From Oscillospiraceae bacterium (lineage in GTDB: Bacteria > Bacillota > Clostridia > Oscillospirales > Ruminococcaceae), in contig SVMX01000003.1 of NCBI GenBank assembly GCA_015067175.1, positions 32,457 through 96,456 of the forward strand: 64,000 nucleotides of DNA. Direction: 5' to 3'. A program made the position numbers and the translations under genes. Below, in pieces: positions 36,856 to 44,361 of this stretch. Each line of letters opens with the position of its first letter. Position 1 is the first letter of the stretch. The notes beneath the pieces are model-generated. The model was given only the letters and a program-made list of their open reading frames with translations. It was not told the origin of the DNA and did not search any database.

Positions 36856-37683
36856 ATGAAAAAACGAAAGATAATAATTATATCCGCGGTTGTCTTGGGG
36901 GTGCTGCTTGTGATATGGATATTTATCACGAATATCACTGTTGGGCTTACCCGTTACACGATAGCCTATTCGTCGTTGCCCGAGCAGTTTGACGGTTTCA
37001 GAATAGCGCAGGTCTCTGATTTTCACAATGCTGACTTCTGGGGTGCCGAGGACGCGGTCGTTAATGCTGTTAAGGAGTCAAAGCCTGACATCATAGCCAT
37101 CACGGGCGACCTTGTTGACTCCACCTACCCTAATGTGGAGGTCTCGCTTTCGCTCATGCGAAGATTGTCTGATATAGCGCCTTGTTATTATGTAACTGGA
37201 AATCACGAGGCTTGGATAGGCGATGATAATTTTAAGCGGCTGACAGATGAGCTTTCCCGATATGGAGTTACGATACTGCGTGACAGCACGGCGGTGCTCG
37301 AAAAGAATGGCGCAGAGCTGCTTATAGCAGGCATTGACGACCCTGTTTTCTCCTATGGAATAGACAAGATTCCCGAAATAGCGGGAAATGATGAGCGTTT
37401 CACGGTGCTTTTGTCGCATCGTCCCGAGTGTTATGATGTTTATAAAGCCTCGGGAGTGCAGCTTGTGCTGTCGGGACACGCTCACGGCGGTCAGTTCAGA
37501 TTGCCGTTTGTTGGCGGACTTTACGCGCCGCATCAGGGTGTGCTGCCCGAATATGACTGCGGAATATATCAGGACGGAGATTTTGCGCTTGCGGTAAGCC
37601 GCGGAATAGGCAACAGCGTGTTCCCTGTGCGTTTCAACAATCAACCCGAAGTCGTGGCTATAGAGCTGCGAAAAGCATCATGA
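36856..37683 (+). CDS. Membrane-anchored metallophosphoesterase (YkuE-like)
   Basis: The 275-residue protein has one N-terminal membrane segment (about 5-27) and a calcineurin-like phosphoesterase domain with all metal motifs: QVSDFHNADFWG (D-x-H, about 52), ITGDLVDS (about 82), VTGNHEAW (about 115), LLSHRPE (about 190) and LSGHAHGGQ (about 211). The YkuE-type family in Bacillus is thought to act on lipid-linked phosphates at the membrane. Last gene of the operon, with a terminator 5 bp beyond. Confidence 0.88.
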   Translation: MKKRKIIIISAVVLGVLLVIWIFITNITVGLTRYTIAYSSLPEQFDGFRIAQVSDFHNADFWGAEDAVVNAVKESKPDIIAITGDLVDSTYPNVEVSLSLMRRLSDIAPCYYVTGNHEAWIGDDNFKRLTDELSRYGVTILRDSTAVLEKNGAELLIAGIDDPVFSYGIDKIPEIAGNDERFTVLLSHRPECYDVYKASGVQLVLSGHAHGGQFRLPFVGGLYAPHQGVLPEYDCGIYQDGDFALAVSRGIGNSVFPVRFNNQPEVVAIELRKAS

Positions 37684-37686
37684 TAT

Positions 37687-37717
37687 AAAGCCCTTGGCTT
37701 ATGCCGAGGGCTTTTCT
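37687..37717 (+). terminator. Terminator of the methyltransferase-phosphoesterase operon
   Basis: AAGCCCTTGGC / GCCGAGGGCTT stem with one mismatch, TTAT loop, then TTCTC. Confidence 0.8.
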
Positions 37718-37731
37718 CTACTTTCGGTAGG

Positions 37732-37760
37732 TTGCATACCCGAGAAAACGGGTGTATAAT
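37732..37760 (+). promoter_or_regulatory. Promoter of the HTH-desulfoferrodoxin gene with operator in the spacer
   Basis: TTGCAT (37732-37737), 17-bp spacer, TATAAT (37755-37760). Almost the whole spacer is an inverted repeat: ACCCG (37738-37742), 6 bases, CGGGT (37749-37753). A second inverted repeat, TTCAG / CTGAA (37760-37764 and 37775-37779), follows at the transcription start. A repressor bound here would block RNA polymerase directly. Confidence 0.65.
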
Positions 37761-37794
37761 TCAGTCATAAACAACTGAAAGAGAGGTAAATGCT

Positions 37795-38373
37795 ATGAGT
37801 TATGTAACAGGCGACACGATAAAAGCCTTGCGTACTAAAAGAAAGCTTACGCAAAAACAGCTTGCCGATGCACTGTTTGTAAGCGATAAGGCGGTATCTA
37901 AATGGGAAACAGGCAAGGGGCTTCCCGATATTTCGATATTGCCCGAGCTTGCGAAAGCGCTTTCTGTAAGCGTTTCGGAGTTGTTGACAGGCGAGCTTGC
38001 ACAGAACATGAACCGAAGCTGTGATATGACGAAGACTTTGTTTTACTGCTGTCCTGTCTGCGGAAATGTTATACTGTCCGTGGGCGCGGGAAGCTTCAGC
38101 TGCTGCGGCATAACACTCCCACCGCTTGAAGCGGAGGAGAGTGCCGACCATGCCATCGACCTGCAGATGATTGACGGTGAGCTTTATGTCAGCCTTAAAC
38201 ACCCGATGGAGAAAGAACATTATATCTCGTTCTTTGCCTATGTTACGTCAGATGGTGCAGAGGTGCGGAAGCTGTATCCCGAACAGGCCGCCGAGGCGAG
38301 GTTTTCCCGAAAGGGCAGCGGTATCATCTACGCCTATTGTAACCGCCACGGTCTGCAAAAATTGAAGCTTTGA
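37795..38373 (+). CDS. XRE-family regulator fused to a desulfoferrodoxin-like (superoxide reductase) domain
   Basis: Of 192 residues, 1-66 are a Cro/CI helix-turn-helix (LTQKQLADALFVSDKAVSKWETGKGLPDISIL). Residues 80-110 copy the desulforedoxin iron site: C86, C89, C103, C104 (CPVCG ... CCG). Residues 111-192 copy the superoxide-reductase beta-domain with its iron ligands H119, H136, H142, C182 and H185 (HPMEKEHYI, YCNRHG). The Glu-Lys pair that precedes the first histidine in active desulfoferrodoxin (EKH) is Ala-Asp here. I infer an iron-based redox or oxygen sensor controlling its own promoter; a genuine superoxide reductase is less likely but possible. Confidence 0.82.
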   Translation: MSYVTGDTIKALRTKRKLTQKQLADALFVSDKAVSKWETGKGLPDISILPELAKALSVSVSELLTGELAQNMNRSCDMTKTLFYCCPVCGNVILSVGAGSFSCCGITLPPLEAEESADHAIDLQMIDGELYVSLKHPMEKEHYISFFAYVTSDGAEVRKLYPEQAAEARFSRKGSGIIYAYCNRHGLQKLKL

Positions 38374-38417
38374 GCAGTGCCTGCTGTGCTTCGGTGCATA
38401 GCGGGCGCTGTTTTTTC
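38374..38417 (+). terminator. Terminator after the HTH-desulfoferrodoxin gene
   Basis: Long imperfect stem (CAG-GCC-GCT-TGC around TTCG) followed by TTTTTT at 38411-38416. Confidence 0.85.
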
Positions 38418-38487: not shown

Positions 38488-38496
38488 TGCTATAAT
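38488..38496 (+). promoter_or_regulatory. Extended -10 promoter of ppdK
   Basis: TGCTATAAT at 38488-38496 is an extended -10 element; the -35 region is weak. A leader of about 110 bases with a GC-rich stretch (38560-38590) precedes the AGGAGGAAT ribosome site. Confidence 0.6.
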
Positions 38497-38615
38497 AGAA
38501 TATGTAGCGGAGTATGCCTGTTTTCAGGAAAAATCTGGTACAAAGATGTTAAAAATGCCGCGTTTTGCCGTGCACGGCGGGCGGGGCGTAAATAAAATTC
38601 AGGAGGAATATTCCA

Positions 38616-41237
38616 ATGGCAAAGAAATATTGTTATCTGTTCTCCGAGGGTAATGCTGATATGCGTGAGATCCTCGGCGGTAAGGGTGCAAACCTCGCAG
38701 AGATGACCAACATGGGTCTGCCCGTTCCCCAGGGCTTCACAATCTCTACTGAGGCATGTACAGCTTACTATGATGATGGTCGCAAGATCAATGACGCTAT
38801 CCAGGCTGAGATCAACGAGTACATCACAAAGATGGAAGAGGTTACAGGCAAGAAGTTTGGCGACAAGACAAACCCCCTGCTCGTTTCCGTTCGTTCCGGT
38901 GCGCGTGCTTCCATGCCCGGTATGATGGATACAATCCTCAACCTCGGTCTTAACGAGGACGTAGTTGAGTACATGGCAGAGGCTTCCGGCAATGCTCGCT
39001 GGGCTTATGACTGCTACAGAAGATTTATCCAGATGTACTCCGACGTTGTTATGGAAGTTGGTAAGAAGTACTTCGAAGAGCTCATCGACGAGATGAAGGC
39101 TAAGAAGGGCGTTACACAGGACGTTGACCTGACTGCTGAAGACCTCAAGGAGCTTGCTAACCAGTTCAAGGCTGAGTACAAGTCCAAGATCGGTCAGGAC
39201 TTCCCCACCGATCCTAAGGAGCAGCTGATGGGCGCTGTTAAGGCTGTATTCCGTTCTTGGGATAACCCCAGAGCTAACGTTTACCGCCGCGACAACGATA
39301 TCCCTTACTCCTGGGGTACTGCTGTAAACGTACAGATGATGGCATTCGGTAACATGGGCGACGACTGCGGTACCGGTGTTGCATTTACACGTGATCCCGC
39401 TACAGGCGAGAAGAAGCTTATGGGTGAGTTCCTTACAAACGCACAGGGCGAGGACGTAGTTGCCGGTGTTCGTACTCCTATGCCTATCGCTCAGATGGCT
39501 GAGAAGTTCCCCGCTGCATTCGCTGAGTTCCAGAAGGTTTGCGCAACCCTCGAGAACCACTACAGAGATATGCAGGATATGGAGTTCACAGTTGAGCACG
39601 AGAAGCTCTACATGCTCCAGACCCGTAACGGTAAGAGAACAGCTCAGGCTGCTCTCAAGATCGCTTGTGACCTCGTTGACGAGGGCATGAGAACAGAGCA
39701 GGAAGCTGTTCTGATGATCGACCCCAGAAACCTCGACACACTGCTTCACCCCCAGTTCGACGCTGCTGCTCTCAAGGCTGCAACTCCCGCTGGTAAGGGT
39801 CTCGGCGCTTCCCCCGGAGCTGCTTGCGGTAAGGTAGTATTCACTGCTGAAGACGCTGTTGCTTGGGCTGAGCGTGGCGAGAAGGTTGTTCTGGTTCGTC
39901 TGGAAACATCTCCTGAGGATATCACAGGTATGAAAGCTGCTCAGGGTATCCTGACAGTTCGTGGCGGTATGACATCTCACGCTGCCGTAGTTGCTCGTGG
40001 TATGGGTACTTGCTGTGTATCCGGCTGCGGCGACATCAAGATGGACGAAGAGAACAAGCAGTTCACACTGGCTGGTAAGACATACCACGAGGGTGACTGC
40101 ATCTCCATCGACGGTACAACAGGTAACATCTACGATGGTCTTATCCCCACAGTAGACGCTACAATCGCTGGCGAGTTCGGCAGAATCATGGCTTGGGCTG
40201 ACAAGTACAGAGTTCTGAAGGTAAGAACAAACGCTGATACACCCGCTGACGCTAAGAAGGCTAGAGAGCTTGGCGCTGAGGGTATCGGTCTTTGCCGTAC
40301 AGAGCACATGTTCTTCGAGACTGACAGAATCGCTGCATTCCGCGAGATGATCTGCTCCGATACAGTTGAAGAGCGTGAGGCTGCTCTTGCTAAGATCGAG
40401 CCCATGCAGCAGGCTGACTTCGAGGCTCTCTACGAGGCTCTTGAGGGTAACCCTGTAACAATCCGTTTCCTCGATCCTCCTCTGCACGAATTCGTTCCCA
40501 CAGAAGAGGCAGACATTGCTGCTCTTGCTGCTACACAGGGCAAGTCTGTTGCTGACATCAAGGCTCTCATCGCTGGTCTGCACGAGTTCAACCCCATGAT
40601 GGGTCACCGTGGATGCCGTCTGGCTGTAACATACCCCGAGATCGCTAAGATGCAGACAGCTGCTGTTATCAAGGCTGCTATCAACGTTAAGAAGGCTCAT
40701 CCCGATTGGAACATCGTTCCCGAGATCATGATCCCCCTCGTTGGCGAGATCAAGGAGCTGAAGTACGTTAAGGACGTAGTTGTTAAGACTGCTGACGAAG
40801 TTATCGCTGCTGCTGGTGTTGAGCTGAAGTACGAAGTTGGTACAATGATCGAGATTCCTCGTGCAGCTCTCACAGCTGATGACATCGCTAAGGAAGCTGA
40901 GTTCTTCTGCTTCGGTACAAACGACCTGACACAGATGACATACGGCTTCTCCAGAGATGATGCTGGTAAGTTCCTGAACGCTTACTATGATGCAAAGATC
41001 TTCGAGAACGATCCCTTCGCTAAGCTCGACCAGATCGGCGTTGGTAAGCTGATGGAGACAGCTATCAAGCTTGGTAAGGCTACACGTCCTGAGCTCCACG
41101 TAGGTATCTGCGGCGAGCACGGCGGCGATCCCTCCTCTGTTGAGTTCTGCCACAAGCTTGGTCTGACTTATGTATCTTGCTCTCCCTTCCGTGTTCCGAT
41201 CGCTAGACTGGCTGCTGCACAGGCTGCACTCAGATAA
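38616..41237 (+). CDS. ppdK: Pyruvate, phosphate dikinase
   Basis: The 873-residue enzyme interconverts pyruvate + ATP + Pi and PEP + AMP + PPi; in cellulolytic anaerobes it runs toward pyruvate, saving energy. ATP-grasp domain (about 1-340, GGKGANLAEMTNMGLPVPQGFTIS at 22-45), phosphohistidine domain with the active His in GGMTSHAAVVARGMG (about 455), and PEP-binding TIM barrel (530-873) ending with the catalytic CGEHGGDPSS loop. Codon use is very strongly biased (GCT, GGT, ATC, AAC and AAG dominate) unlike the neighbours, marking it as highly expressed. Single gene with its own promoter and terminator. Confidence 0.98.
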   Translation: MAKKYCYLFSEGNADMREILGGKGANLAEMTNMGLPVPQGFTISTEACTAYYDDGRKINDAIQAEINEYITKMEEVTGKKFGDKTNPLLVSVRSGARASMPGMMDTILNLGLNEDVVEYMAEASGNARWAYDCYRRFIQMYSDVVMEVGKKYFEELIDEMKAKKGVTQDVDLTAEDLKELANQFKAEYKSKIGQDFPTDPKEQLMGAVKAVFRSWDNPRANVYRRDNDIPYSWGTAVNVQMMAFGNMGDDCGTGVAFTRDPATGEKKLMGEFLTNAQGEDVVAGVRTPMPIAQMAEKFPAAFAEFQKVCATLENHYRDMQDMEFTVEHEKLYMLQTRNGKRTAQAALKIACDLVDEGMRTEQEAVLMIDPRNLDTLLHPQFDAAALKAATPAGKGLGASPGAACGKVVFTAEDAVAWAERGEKVVLVRLETSPEDITGMKAAQGILTVRGGMTSHAAVVARGMGTCCVSGCGDIKMDEENKQFTLAGKTYHEGDCISIDGTTGNIYDGLIPTVDATIAGEFGRIMAWADKYRVLKVRTNADTPADAKKARELGAEGIGLCRTEHMFFETDRIAAFREMICSDTVEEREAALAKIEPMQQADFEALYEALEGNPVTIRFLDPPLHEFVPTEEADIAALAATQGKSVADIKALIAGLHEFNPMMGHRGCRLAVTYPEIAKMQTAAVIKAAINVKKAHPDWNIVPEIMIPLVGEIKELKYVKDVVVKTADEVIAAAGVELKYEVGTMIEIPRAALTADDIAKEAEFFCFGTNDLTQMTYGFSRDDAGKFLNAYYDAKIFENDPFAKLDQIGVGKLMETAIKLGKATRPELHVGICGEHGGDPSSVEFCHKLGLTYVSCSPFRVPIARLAAAQAALR

Positions 41238-43477: not shown

Positions 43478-43831
43478 TCAAGCGCGAACGTATGTAGCCT
43501 TTACAAAGCCCATATCAAGAATGATATTGGAGCCTGTGTATTCGCAAGTGATGGAAACACCGGATTCAGTGATGGTAAGCTCGCTGCCGTTGAGTGTCCA
43601 GTTTCCGGAGGTCTGACCAGCAGAAGTGATGGTGCCATCTTCGTTGAATGTCATTGTAGAAGCGTCATCACCATAGCCTGCAGCTGCAGGGTCAACAGTT
43701 GCGCCCATCATTTCAACGGAGCTGATCTTCCATGTGCCAACAGGGCTTCCGCCTGCACAGCCTGCAAGCAGACCGAGGCAGAGAGTAAGTACTACCATGA
43801 TTGCTGCGATAGATTTGATTGTTCTTTTCAT
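43478..43831 (-). CDS. Small lipoprotein, duplicated copy 1
   Basis: The 117-residue protein has a lipoprotein signal with cleavage before Cys about 25 (LLAGC), then a compact beta domain: VGTWKISSVEMMG, STMTFNEDGTITSAG and NWTLNGSELTIT, a lipocalin-like DUF4923/DUF5640 style pattern. Residues 1-30 and the upstream DNA are nearly identical to the neighbour at 43908-44279, while the mature parts have diverged. The start is ATG 43831 after GAGGTG. No function is known for the family. Confidence 0.7.
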   Translation of the reverse strand: MKRTIKSIAAIMVVLTLCLGLLAGCAGGSPVGTWKISSVEMMGATVDPAAAGYGDDASTMTFNEDGTITSAGQTSGNWTLNGSELTITESGVSITCEYTGSNIILDMGFVKATYVRA

Positions 43832-43907
43832 AATAAACACCTCAATAAATTTCTCGGCTAAATGCCAGGTTCAATCAATATGGCATTGATATGTACTGTT
43901 GGAGCTA

Positions 43908-44279
43908 TTACTTTGTGAAGATGAGAGCAGCGTCCATGCCCATAGCTTCGTATTCCATAACAAGTCTGCCGCCTTCGAGCTTCATATCCATACCGTTAAT
44001 GTTGTAAACGCCGTTGCCGGAATCAGTGTAATTTGTTACACCGTTGGATGTGCCATCCATAACCAGCTCTGCAGTGCCATCTTCATTGAAGGTGATGGTC
44101 ATATCAGGAACTGCGCCCATTTCTTTCAGATCAGCAACGCTGATTTCCTGATCACTGATCTTAGCTGCGGTAAGCTTCCAGCTGCCTATGATGCTTGTTG
44201 CTGCACAACCTGCGATCAGACCGAGACAGAGTGTAAGTACTACCATGATTGCTGCGATTGATTTGATTGTTCTTTTCAT
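43908..44279 (-). CDS. Small lipoprotein, duplicated copy 2
   Basis: The 123-residue paralogue of the previous gene has the same signal peptide with cleavage before Cys about 25 (LIAGC) and shares IGSWKLTAAKI and DMTITFNEDGTAELVMDG. It has an additional segment and a different C-terminus (GRLVMEYEAMGMDAALIFTK). The start is ATG 44279 after GAGGTG; the longer frame to 44324 is not supported. The pair arose by tandem duplication including about 25 bp of leader. No promoter was identified with confidence. Confidence 0.7.
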   Translation of the reverse strand: MKRTIKSIAAIMVVLTLCLGLIAGCAATSIIGSWKLTAAKISDQEISVADLKEMGAVPDMTITFNEDGTAELVMDGTSNGVTNYTDSGNGVYNINGMDMKLEGGRLVMEYEAMGMDAALIFTK

Positions 44280-44361
44280 AATAAACACCTCATTAATTTC
44301 TTGGCTTATGCCATATTTATACATAACTCATGCATCTTATCGCATGGGTAAGTACCGTGAT

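Follow-up and report, generated by a model that had tools for sequence, protein, structure and literature searches.

A helix-turn-helix (HTH) domain of the XRE type is fused to a desulfoferrodoxin-like iron module in the product of a gene at 37795..38373 (+ strand) of the window, the 64,000-nt stretch of DNA analysed here (Oscillospiraceae bacterium, assembly GCA_015067175.1, contig SVMX01000003.1, positions 32,457 to 96,456 of the forward strand). We give a slightly better than even chance to the reading that this protein functions as a one-component, iron-based regulator of the gene that encodes it, in which an XRE domain is combined with a superoxide reductase (SOR)-like domain lacking the catalytic Glu-Lys pair. 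The sequence evidence consists of the domains, the iron ligands, a conserved operator-promoter unit, the absence of any other target above control and a clade-wide loss of Glu-Lys; iron binding, a dimer, repression and a signal are what we infer.

The open reading frame encodes 192 aa plus the stop codon, with the XRE HTH at residues 9-63 and the desulfoferrodoxin-like part at residues 83-189. A sequence-only reading had placed the start at 37732; the gene is present, but its frame begins at 37795, and the earlier start takes in the promoter. HTH_3 matched residues 9-63 (E 9.7e-14, 51.6 bits against a Pfam cut-off of 23), which assigns the domain to the XRE / Cro-C1 type, and PF01880 (Desulfoferrodox) matched residues 130-188 with 27.7 bits, above the Pfam cut-off of 22.2. 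With both domains above their cut-offs and the ligand set complete, the fusion described by that reading is real. The centre I profile PF06397 scored 16 against a cut-off of 23, below the Pfam threshold. TIGR00320 (desulfoferrodoxin) covered residues 83-189 with an E-value of 4e-13, yet its 49.6 bits fall short of the curated cut-off of 146.9; any match passes this cut-off in just 6 of 76 fusion-holding class genomes, so many stand-alone desulforedoxin-SOR (Dx-SOR) proteins fail it too. The window protein has the fold of the Dx-SOR enzymes, the four His and one Cys of SOR centre II, and the architecture of the SORGOdb class HTH-Dx-SOR, an N-terminal HTH followed by a Dx-SOR module. One gene of its own assembly, which is 84% complete, reaches the Pfam cut-off, and the profile search found no other SOR gene there; a 16-bit SOR-like match was rejected as a second SOR because it lies in an unrelated frame.

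At least 561 relatives were present in genome_contigs, and the best 80 were taken; these include Bacillota, Actinomycetota (Collinsella, Paraeggerthella, Gordonibacter) and Treponema. Together with the window protein they form a sample of 81 near relatives (the window protein and L001-L080), which leans towards the window protein because the scan was seeded with six of its peptides and only the best matches were kept. A second sample combined 29 family matches with loci, of 42 besides the window's own, with 60 chosen class matches of 76, partial and some mostly weak ones being left out; one of these 89 (L116) was dropped as truncated, and the remaining 88 are less biased, though not unbiased. 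By whole-genome search, the fusion occurs in at least 40 of 148 same-family genomes (E <= 1e-20) and in at least 76 of 393 class genomes (E <= 1e-25), mostly in single copy; both counts are lower bounds, at most 22 and 8 candidates having been scored per genome. Another SOR-like gene accompanies the fusion in 56 of the 76 class genomes (own reading of the matches), which is of the Dx type in 47 (in one case truncated where the contig ends) and shows a centre II match only in 9; the fusion is thus usually not the sole SOR of the cell.

The nine ligands C86, C89, C103 and C104 of centre I (codons in the stretch 38050..38106, + strand) and H119, H136, H142, C182 and H185 of centre II (38149..38349, + strand) align with those of solved desulfoferrodoxins, as had been proposed. 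The accompanying claim that they stand in the known spacing held for CxxC, CC, Hx5H and Cx2H, but not for the other gaps, which are x13, x16 and x39. Published SOR gaps are x15, x19-27 and x40-63, with the motif (E)(K)H(x)19-27H(x)5H(x)40-63C(x)2H as given in the relevant passages of PMC11980386. The window protein reads ADH-x16-H-x5-H-x39-C-x2-H and so departs from the published Dx-SOR motif; x39 in the last long gap is found in 5 of 30 canonical proteins as well. Its centre I, Cx2Cx13CC, also differs from the CXXCX15CC given for HTH-Dx-SOR in the main text of the SORGOdb paper (PMC3116461), a mismatch that does not exclude membership, since the class is defined by architecture. The shortened gaps are shared by the fusions: Cx2Cx13CC was found in 168/169 of them, against x15 in 30/30 canonical Dx-SORs, and H119-x16-H136, counted by alignment columns, in 167/169, against x19 in 30/30.

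The replacement of Glu-Lys by Ala-Asp before H119, also noted from the sequence, was borne out in the window protein. Among the 81 near relatives, Glu-Lys-His occurs once and the Lys three times (absent in 78); in the second sample, a Lys stands directly before the first His position in 7/88 and Glu-Lys-His is present in 5/88, the Lys being absent in 81. Among stand-alone Dx-SORs of fusion-bearing genomes, Glu-Lys-His was found in 30/30; these were the best-scoring of 52 (own count), second copies apart, a choice that favours Glu-Lys-His. By these counts, the catalytic Lys is missing across most of the fusion family and not just in the window protein. Lombard and colleagues reportedly addressed the roles of Glu47 and Lys48 in superoxide reductase catalysis in 2001. 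Nanoarchaeum equitans is said to have a SOR without the Glu, so that losing the Glu alone does not abolish activity.

All nine ligands were retained in 68/81 near relatives (window protein included) and in 52 of the 88 proteins of the second sample. Within the latter, C86, C89, C103, H136 and M138 are present in 88/88, C104 in 81/88, H142 and C182 in 79/88 each (lost in 9 each), and H119 and H185 in 64/88 each, H119 being lost in 24. The predicted centre I cysteines are nearly invariant, and predicted centre II ligands are missing in part of the family. Taken with the Lys counts, the ligand counts speak against superoxide reduction as the common function of the family; the losses also speak against centre II being essential everywhere, though the window protein has every ligand. 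A His at position 104 (centre I) is paired with Asp185 (centre II) in 12 of the 14 proteins that have His104; the same Asp occurs in 12 of 153 Cys104 proteins.

PerR is an iron-dependent oxidative-stress regulator and in this resembles the role proposed here, but it has the Fur fold, a different operator and a multi-gene regulon. The superoxide reductase of Treponema pallidum reportedly lacks the centre I iron. That enzyme (1y07) also differs from the fusion in having no HTH. The Dx-SOR / 2Fe-SOR desulfoferrodoxins (TIGR00320; 1dfx, 2ji1, 1vzg) share the fold and the nine iron ligands; from these the fusion differs by the added HTH, the missing Glu-Lys, x13/x16 instead of x15/x19, and its separate clade. 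The P22 c2 and 434 repressors (3jxb, 2r1j, 2or1) are alike in the XRE DNA-binding fold and in their short dyad operators, but carry no iron domain.

The architecture as such is already known and is common in the class. SORGOdb (PMC3116461) assigned 19 of 325 proteins to HTH-Dx-SOR in 2011, with the same N-terminal HTH followed by a desulforedoxin and SOR module; the main text of that paper gives no operator, Lys analysis or function for the class. In the open-licence literature, searched mostly by listing, no functional study of the class was found. The terms "desulfoferrodoxin" and "XRE" occur together in PMC6981617, and the main text of the XRE motif paper PMC12565409 contains none of the operator motif strings derived here. 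TrtA of Treponema denticola was rejected as a characterised relative: according to the sections of PMC12724145 that describe it, it has 104 aa, and it shows no other similarity after residue 81. The expectation that such fusions are annotated only as HTH proteins was confirmed by one relative on a 55-kb Monoglobus plasmid (L167, NZ_OY725727.1), recorded as "helix-turn-helix domain-containing protein"; a ZIP family metal transporter gene lies 100 nt downstream of it.

Upstream of the gene, a -35 element TTGCAT (37732..37737, + strand) is followed after 17 nt by a -10 element TATAAT (37755..37760, + strand). The inverted repeat ACCCG-6-CGGGT that the sequence-only reading had singled out is present between them (37738..37753, + strand), but its proposed role as the operator did not hold. 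Best scores upstream of relatives were like those of shuffled sequence, and across the family the information amounts to 0.01-0.14 bit at 14 of the 16 positions, the exceptions being the final two (0.27 and 0.57 bit), which form the TG that precedes the -10. The genome search suggested for such sites returned one exact copy, the spacer of this gene. The spacer repeat was rejected as operator, being unconserved, and the real candidate lies just upstream of it, overlapping the -35. This likely operator, CTCTACTTTCGGTAGGTTG (37716..37734, + strand), agrees with the family consensus at 14/16 positions. Its dyad core, CTACT-TTC-GGTAG (37718-37730, + strand), has 4/5 complementary pairs here, and the operator runs into the TTG of the -35, the only part of that element conserved in the family.

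A terminator-like hairpin (37687..37714, + strand) follows the upstream gene, which ends at 37683, and its tail runs into the operator. Another lies at the stop codon of the fusion gene (38372..38413, + strand), which therefore looks monocistronic in the window; such sites turn up in shuffles too, with a mean of 1.5 for the region versus 3 found. A TTCAGT-8-ACTGAA inverted repeat at 37760-37779 begins where the -10 ends and reaches into the putative 5' leader, ahead of the ribosome-binding site.

The upstream regions of relatives have the consensus CTCTACGNNNCGTAGGTTG in common. A site scoring at least 12/16 was found within 130 nt upstream in 77/81 near relatives, compared with 0.2% of letter shuffles and 1/80 gene-body stretches. 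Three more near relatives carry the site further up (L057 at -231, L076 at -135, L006 at -1123); in L006, it precedes a 343-aa frame that lies between site and gene and ends at the gene. Within 200 nt in the second sample, 65/88 scored at least 12 (shuffles 0.3%) and 71/88 at least 11 (shuffles 2.7%), leaving 23/88 below 12; the shuffled controls preserve single letters only. Information reaches 0.9-2 bits at 15 site positions, falls to 0.01-0.14 over most of the spacer and is high again at the -10. TAnnnT follows the -35 at a distance of exactly 17 nt in 71/77 promoters by a fixed-distance count, which does not break ties towards 17, as another count of this spacing (68/78) does. Positions 4-6 of the -35 match ACA at no more than one place in 68/77, and TGn precedes the -10 in 35/77.

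Paired half-site changes occur, CTATG..CATAG in L096, L105 and L106 and AAACG..CGTTT in L216, L224 and the plasmid copy. Many distant sites are asymmetric, with CTACG facing CGTTT or CGTGG, and distant members show drifted sites (CGTTTATTG, CGTGGATTG). Over 150 sites the dyad is imperfect, with complementary bases in 132, 94, 142, 147, 98 and 40 for the six mirrored pairs counted from the outside in. Members whose right half is other than GTAGG also differ in the HTH, including residues 3-5, 39 and 41, a putative co-variation that kinship alone could produce. The dyad operator expected at the own promoter of an XRE regulator is represented here by this conserved imperfect dyad as a putative site. 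The claim that the regulator acts on its own gene is strongly suggested by the conservation of this predicted operator (77/81; 65/88), albeit at a different site from the one first proposed.

The further suggestion of other targets found no support, as sites were not in excess over control in the own genome or in the family, class and 55-genome scans (control counts of the last three by own reading). In the own genome, CTACN5GTAGGTTG occurs exactly once, at the fusion gene; four copies with one mismatch fall inside long open frames, in one case at the end of the frame, and the reversed control gave 2. The 148 family genomes hold 11 exact sites, 7 at the fusion gene (in one case the contig ends inside the gene and the start was judged by eye), 1 at the gene of a different XRE regulator and 3 elsewhere, against 27 for the reversed pattern. 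Two of those elsewhere are in genomes that hold the fusion gene, one 163 nt before an ABC-transporter-like frame (G091) and one inside a long frame (G146). Across the 393 class genomes, the strict pattern CTACGNNNCGTAGGTTG was found in two, both times at the fusion gene, and its reverse gave 3. A site with a -10 at the right distance was sought in 55 genomes of about 115 intended, comprising 53 with a protein match, G018 with a cut copy and G101 with none found; it occurred at 24 places, 18 at the fusion gene, 1 at that other XRE gene and 5 elsewhere, against 12 in the reversed control. Many own promoters miss this strict pattern, so regulons with drifted sites may escape that scan. Among the consensus-like sites searched, the fusion gene itself is the only predicted target detected above control.

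Control of stand-alone SOR genes was rejected: within 300 nt upstream of 30 such genes no operator motif was found, the best scores of 8-10/16 being background. A conserved operon partner was rejected as well, because the largest neighbour cluster among the 81 genes has 5 members, of which four belong to Treponema or Spirochaetaceae; neighbours were defined by a simple longest-frame rule, and they include some shadow frames. In 33/78 the frame that comes next shares the strand of the gene, and in 16 of these 33 it follows within less than 100 nt; with the L006 layout, such short gaps mean that the transcript sometimes covers more than this gene. The other XRE regulator (L130, G101:C43; its site at locus 1501-1517) is preceded by the same site with the same promoter spacing; its C-terminal part is hydrophobic, and its genome has no fusion match at E 1e-20. 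The HTH-operator pair may be common to XRE proteins with other sensor parts.

In a tree of 113 columns, the 81 fusion C-domains and 31 canonical ones were separate with 100/100 support. Many forks are open; the Actinomycetota proteins branch at three points among those of Bacillota, and five spirochaete proteins stand together, a placement that hints at transfer. One full-length relative (L228, MT835563.1 20215-23790; 51% identity, operator 15/16) comes from an unverified faecal bacteriophage record, which may be host DNA.

If the protein is an iron regulator of its own gene, a dimer would bind CTACG-NWN-CGTAG overlapping its own -35, and the bound dimer would most likely block its own transcription. 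Desulfoferrodoxins are dimers, so this arrangement would place two HTH domains for the 13-bp dyad. Repression is the first guess because the site covers the -35; activation would likewise be compatible with a site centre near -43 (own reading) and with the poor -35. What the protein senses is most likely a change in the state of its iron centres: if these were oxidised, bound superoxide, NO or peroxide, or lost their iron, the dimer would be altered, and the altered dimer would change the synthesis of the regulator itself.

Four other explanations were weighed. It seems unlikely that the protein has remained a superoxide reductase or scavenger and keeps its own level in check, with K140, K159 and R184 replacing the lost Lys. 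K or R is indeed characteristic of the fusions at these places (140 in 81/81, 159 in 80/81, 184 in 68/81), the canonical enzymes (n = 30) having mixed residues at 140 and 159 and Leu at 184 in 30/30; the nine ligands in 68/81, the own gene as the only target detected and the single gene above the Pfam cut-off in the 84% complete assembly also agree with an enzyme. Against this stand the rarity of Glu-Lys-His in the fusions (1/81 and 5/88, versus 30/30 canonical), the loss of centre II ligands in some members and the other SOR-like gene in 56/76 fusion genomes. Activation of the own promoter, in which the regulator bound near -43 by the poor -35 would recruit RNA polymerase, has an analogue in lambda cI, an activator recruiting RNA polymerase at PRM. 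The position of the site, the poor -35 positions 4-6 (68/77) and the TGn in 35/77 suit such a mode, but XRE regulators bound over the -35 usually repress, and we regard activation as improbable.

Control of other oxidative-stress genes through diverged sites missed by the patterns is doubtful. None of the family, class and 55-genome scans rose above control, the own genome has no further exact site, and none lies within 300 nt upstream of the 30 canonical SOR genes; on the other hand, the sites searched were consensus-like, those of distant members drift, and the exact site in G091 precedes an ABC-transporter-like frame. We consider it quite improbable that the iron domain serves chiefly as a structural or dimerisation module built on the centre I cysteines, holding iron or zinc, with something else as the signal: the constancy of C86, C89 and C103 (88/88) and C104 (81/88) beside partly lost centre II ligands would suit such a module, but H136 and M138 are equally constant (88/88), and the window protein and 68/81 near relatives have all nine ligands.

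For the preferred reading, of an iron regulator acting on its own gene, a regulator targeting itself alone gives the cell nothing obvious unless the protein has a second job. As no target but itself was detected, the protein would also be a scavenger or buffer, or sites were missed by the patterns. We tentatively propose, as a possibility of somewhat less than even probability, that the superoxide reductases of a whole clade have turned into self-contained redox homeostats, each a sensor and repressor that may also scavenge and whose regulon is a single gene, with the gene-plus-operator cassette moving between Bacillota, Actinomycetota and Spirochaetota. Were this so, the drift of centre II in parts of the clade would make the step from enzyme to sensor visible in sequence. 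Bacteria with the fusion would, if the regulator reading is true, possess an iron-based regulator unlike PerR, OxyR or SoxR.

Two observations concern other parts of the window. Adjacent small ORFs at 43478-43840 and 43908-44324 (- strand) have a near-identical lipoprotein-like signal peptide (MKRTIKSIAAIMVVLTLCLGL.AGCA) and are likely tandem paralogs. An 887-aa frame at 38490-41153 (- strand) is open antisense to an 873-aa frame at 38616-41237 and is probably a shadow of the codon use of the latter.
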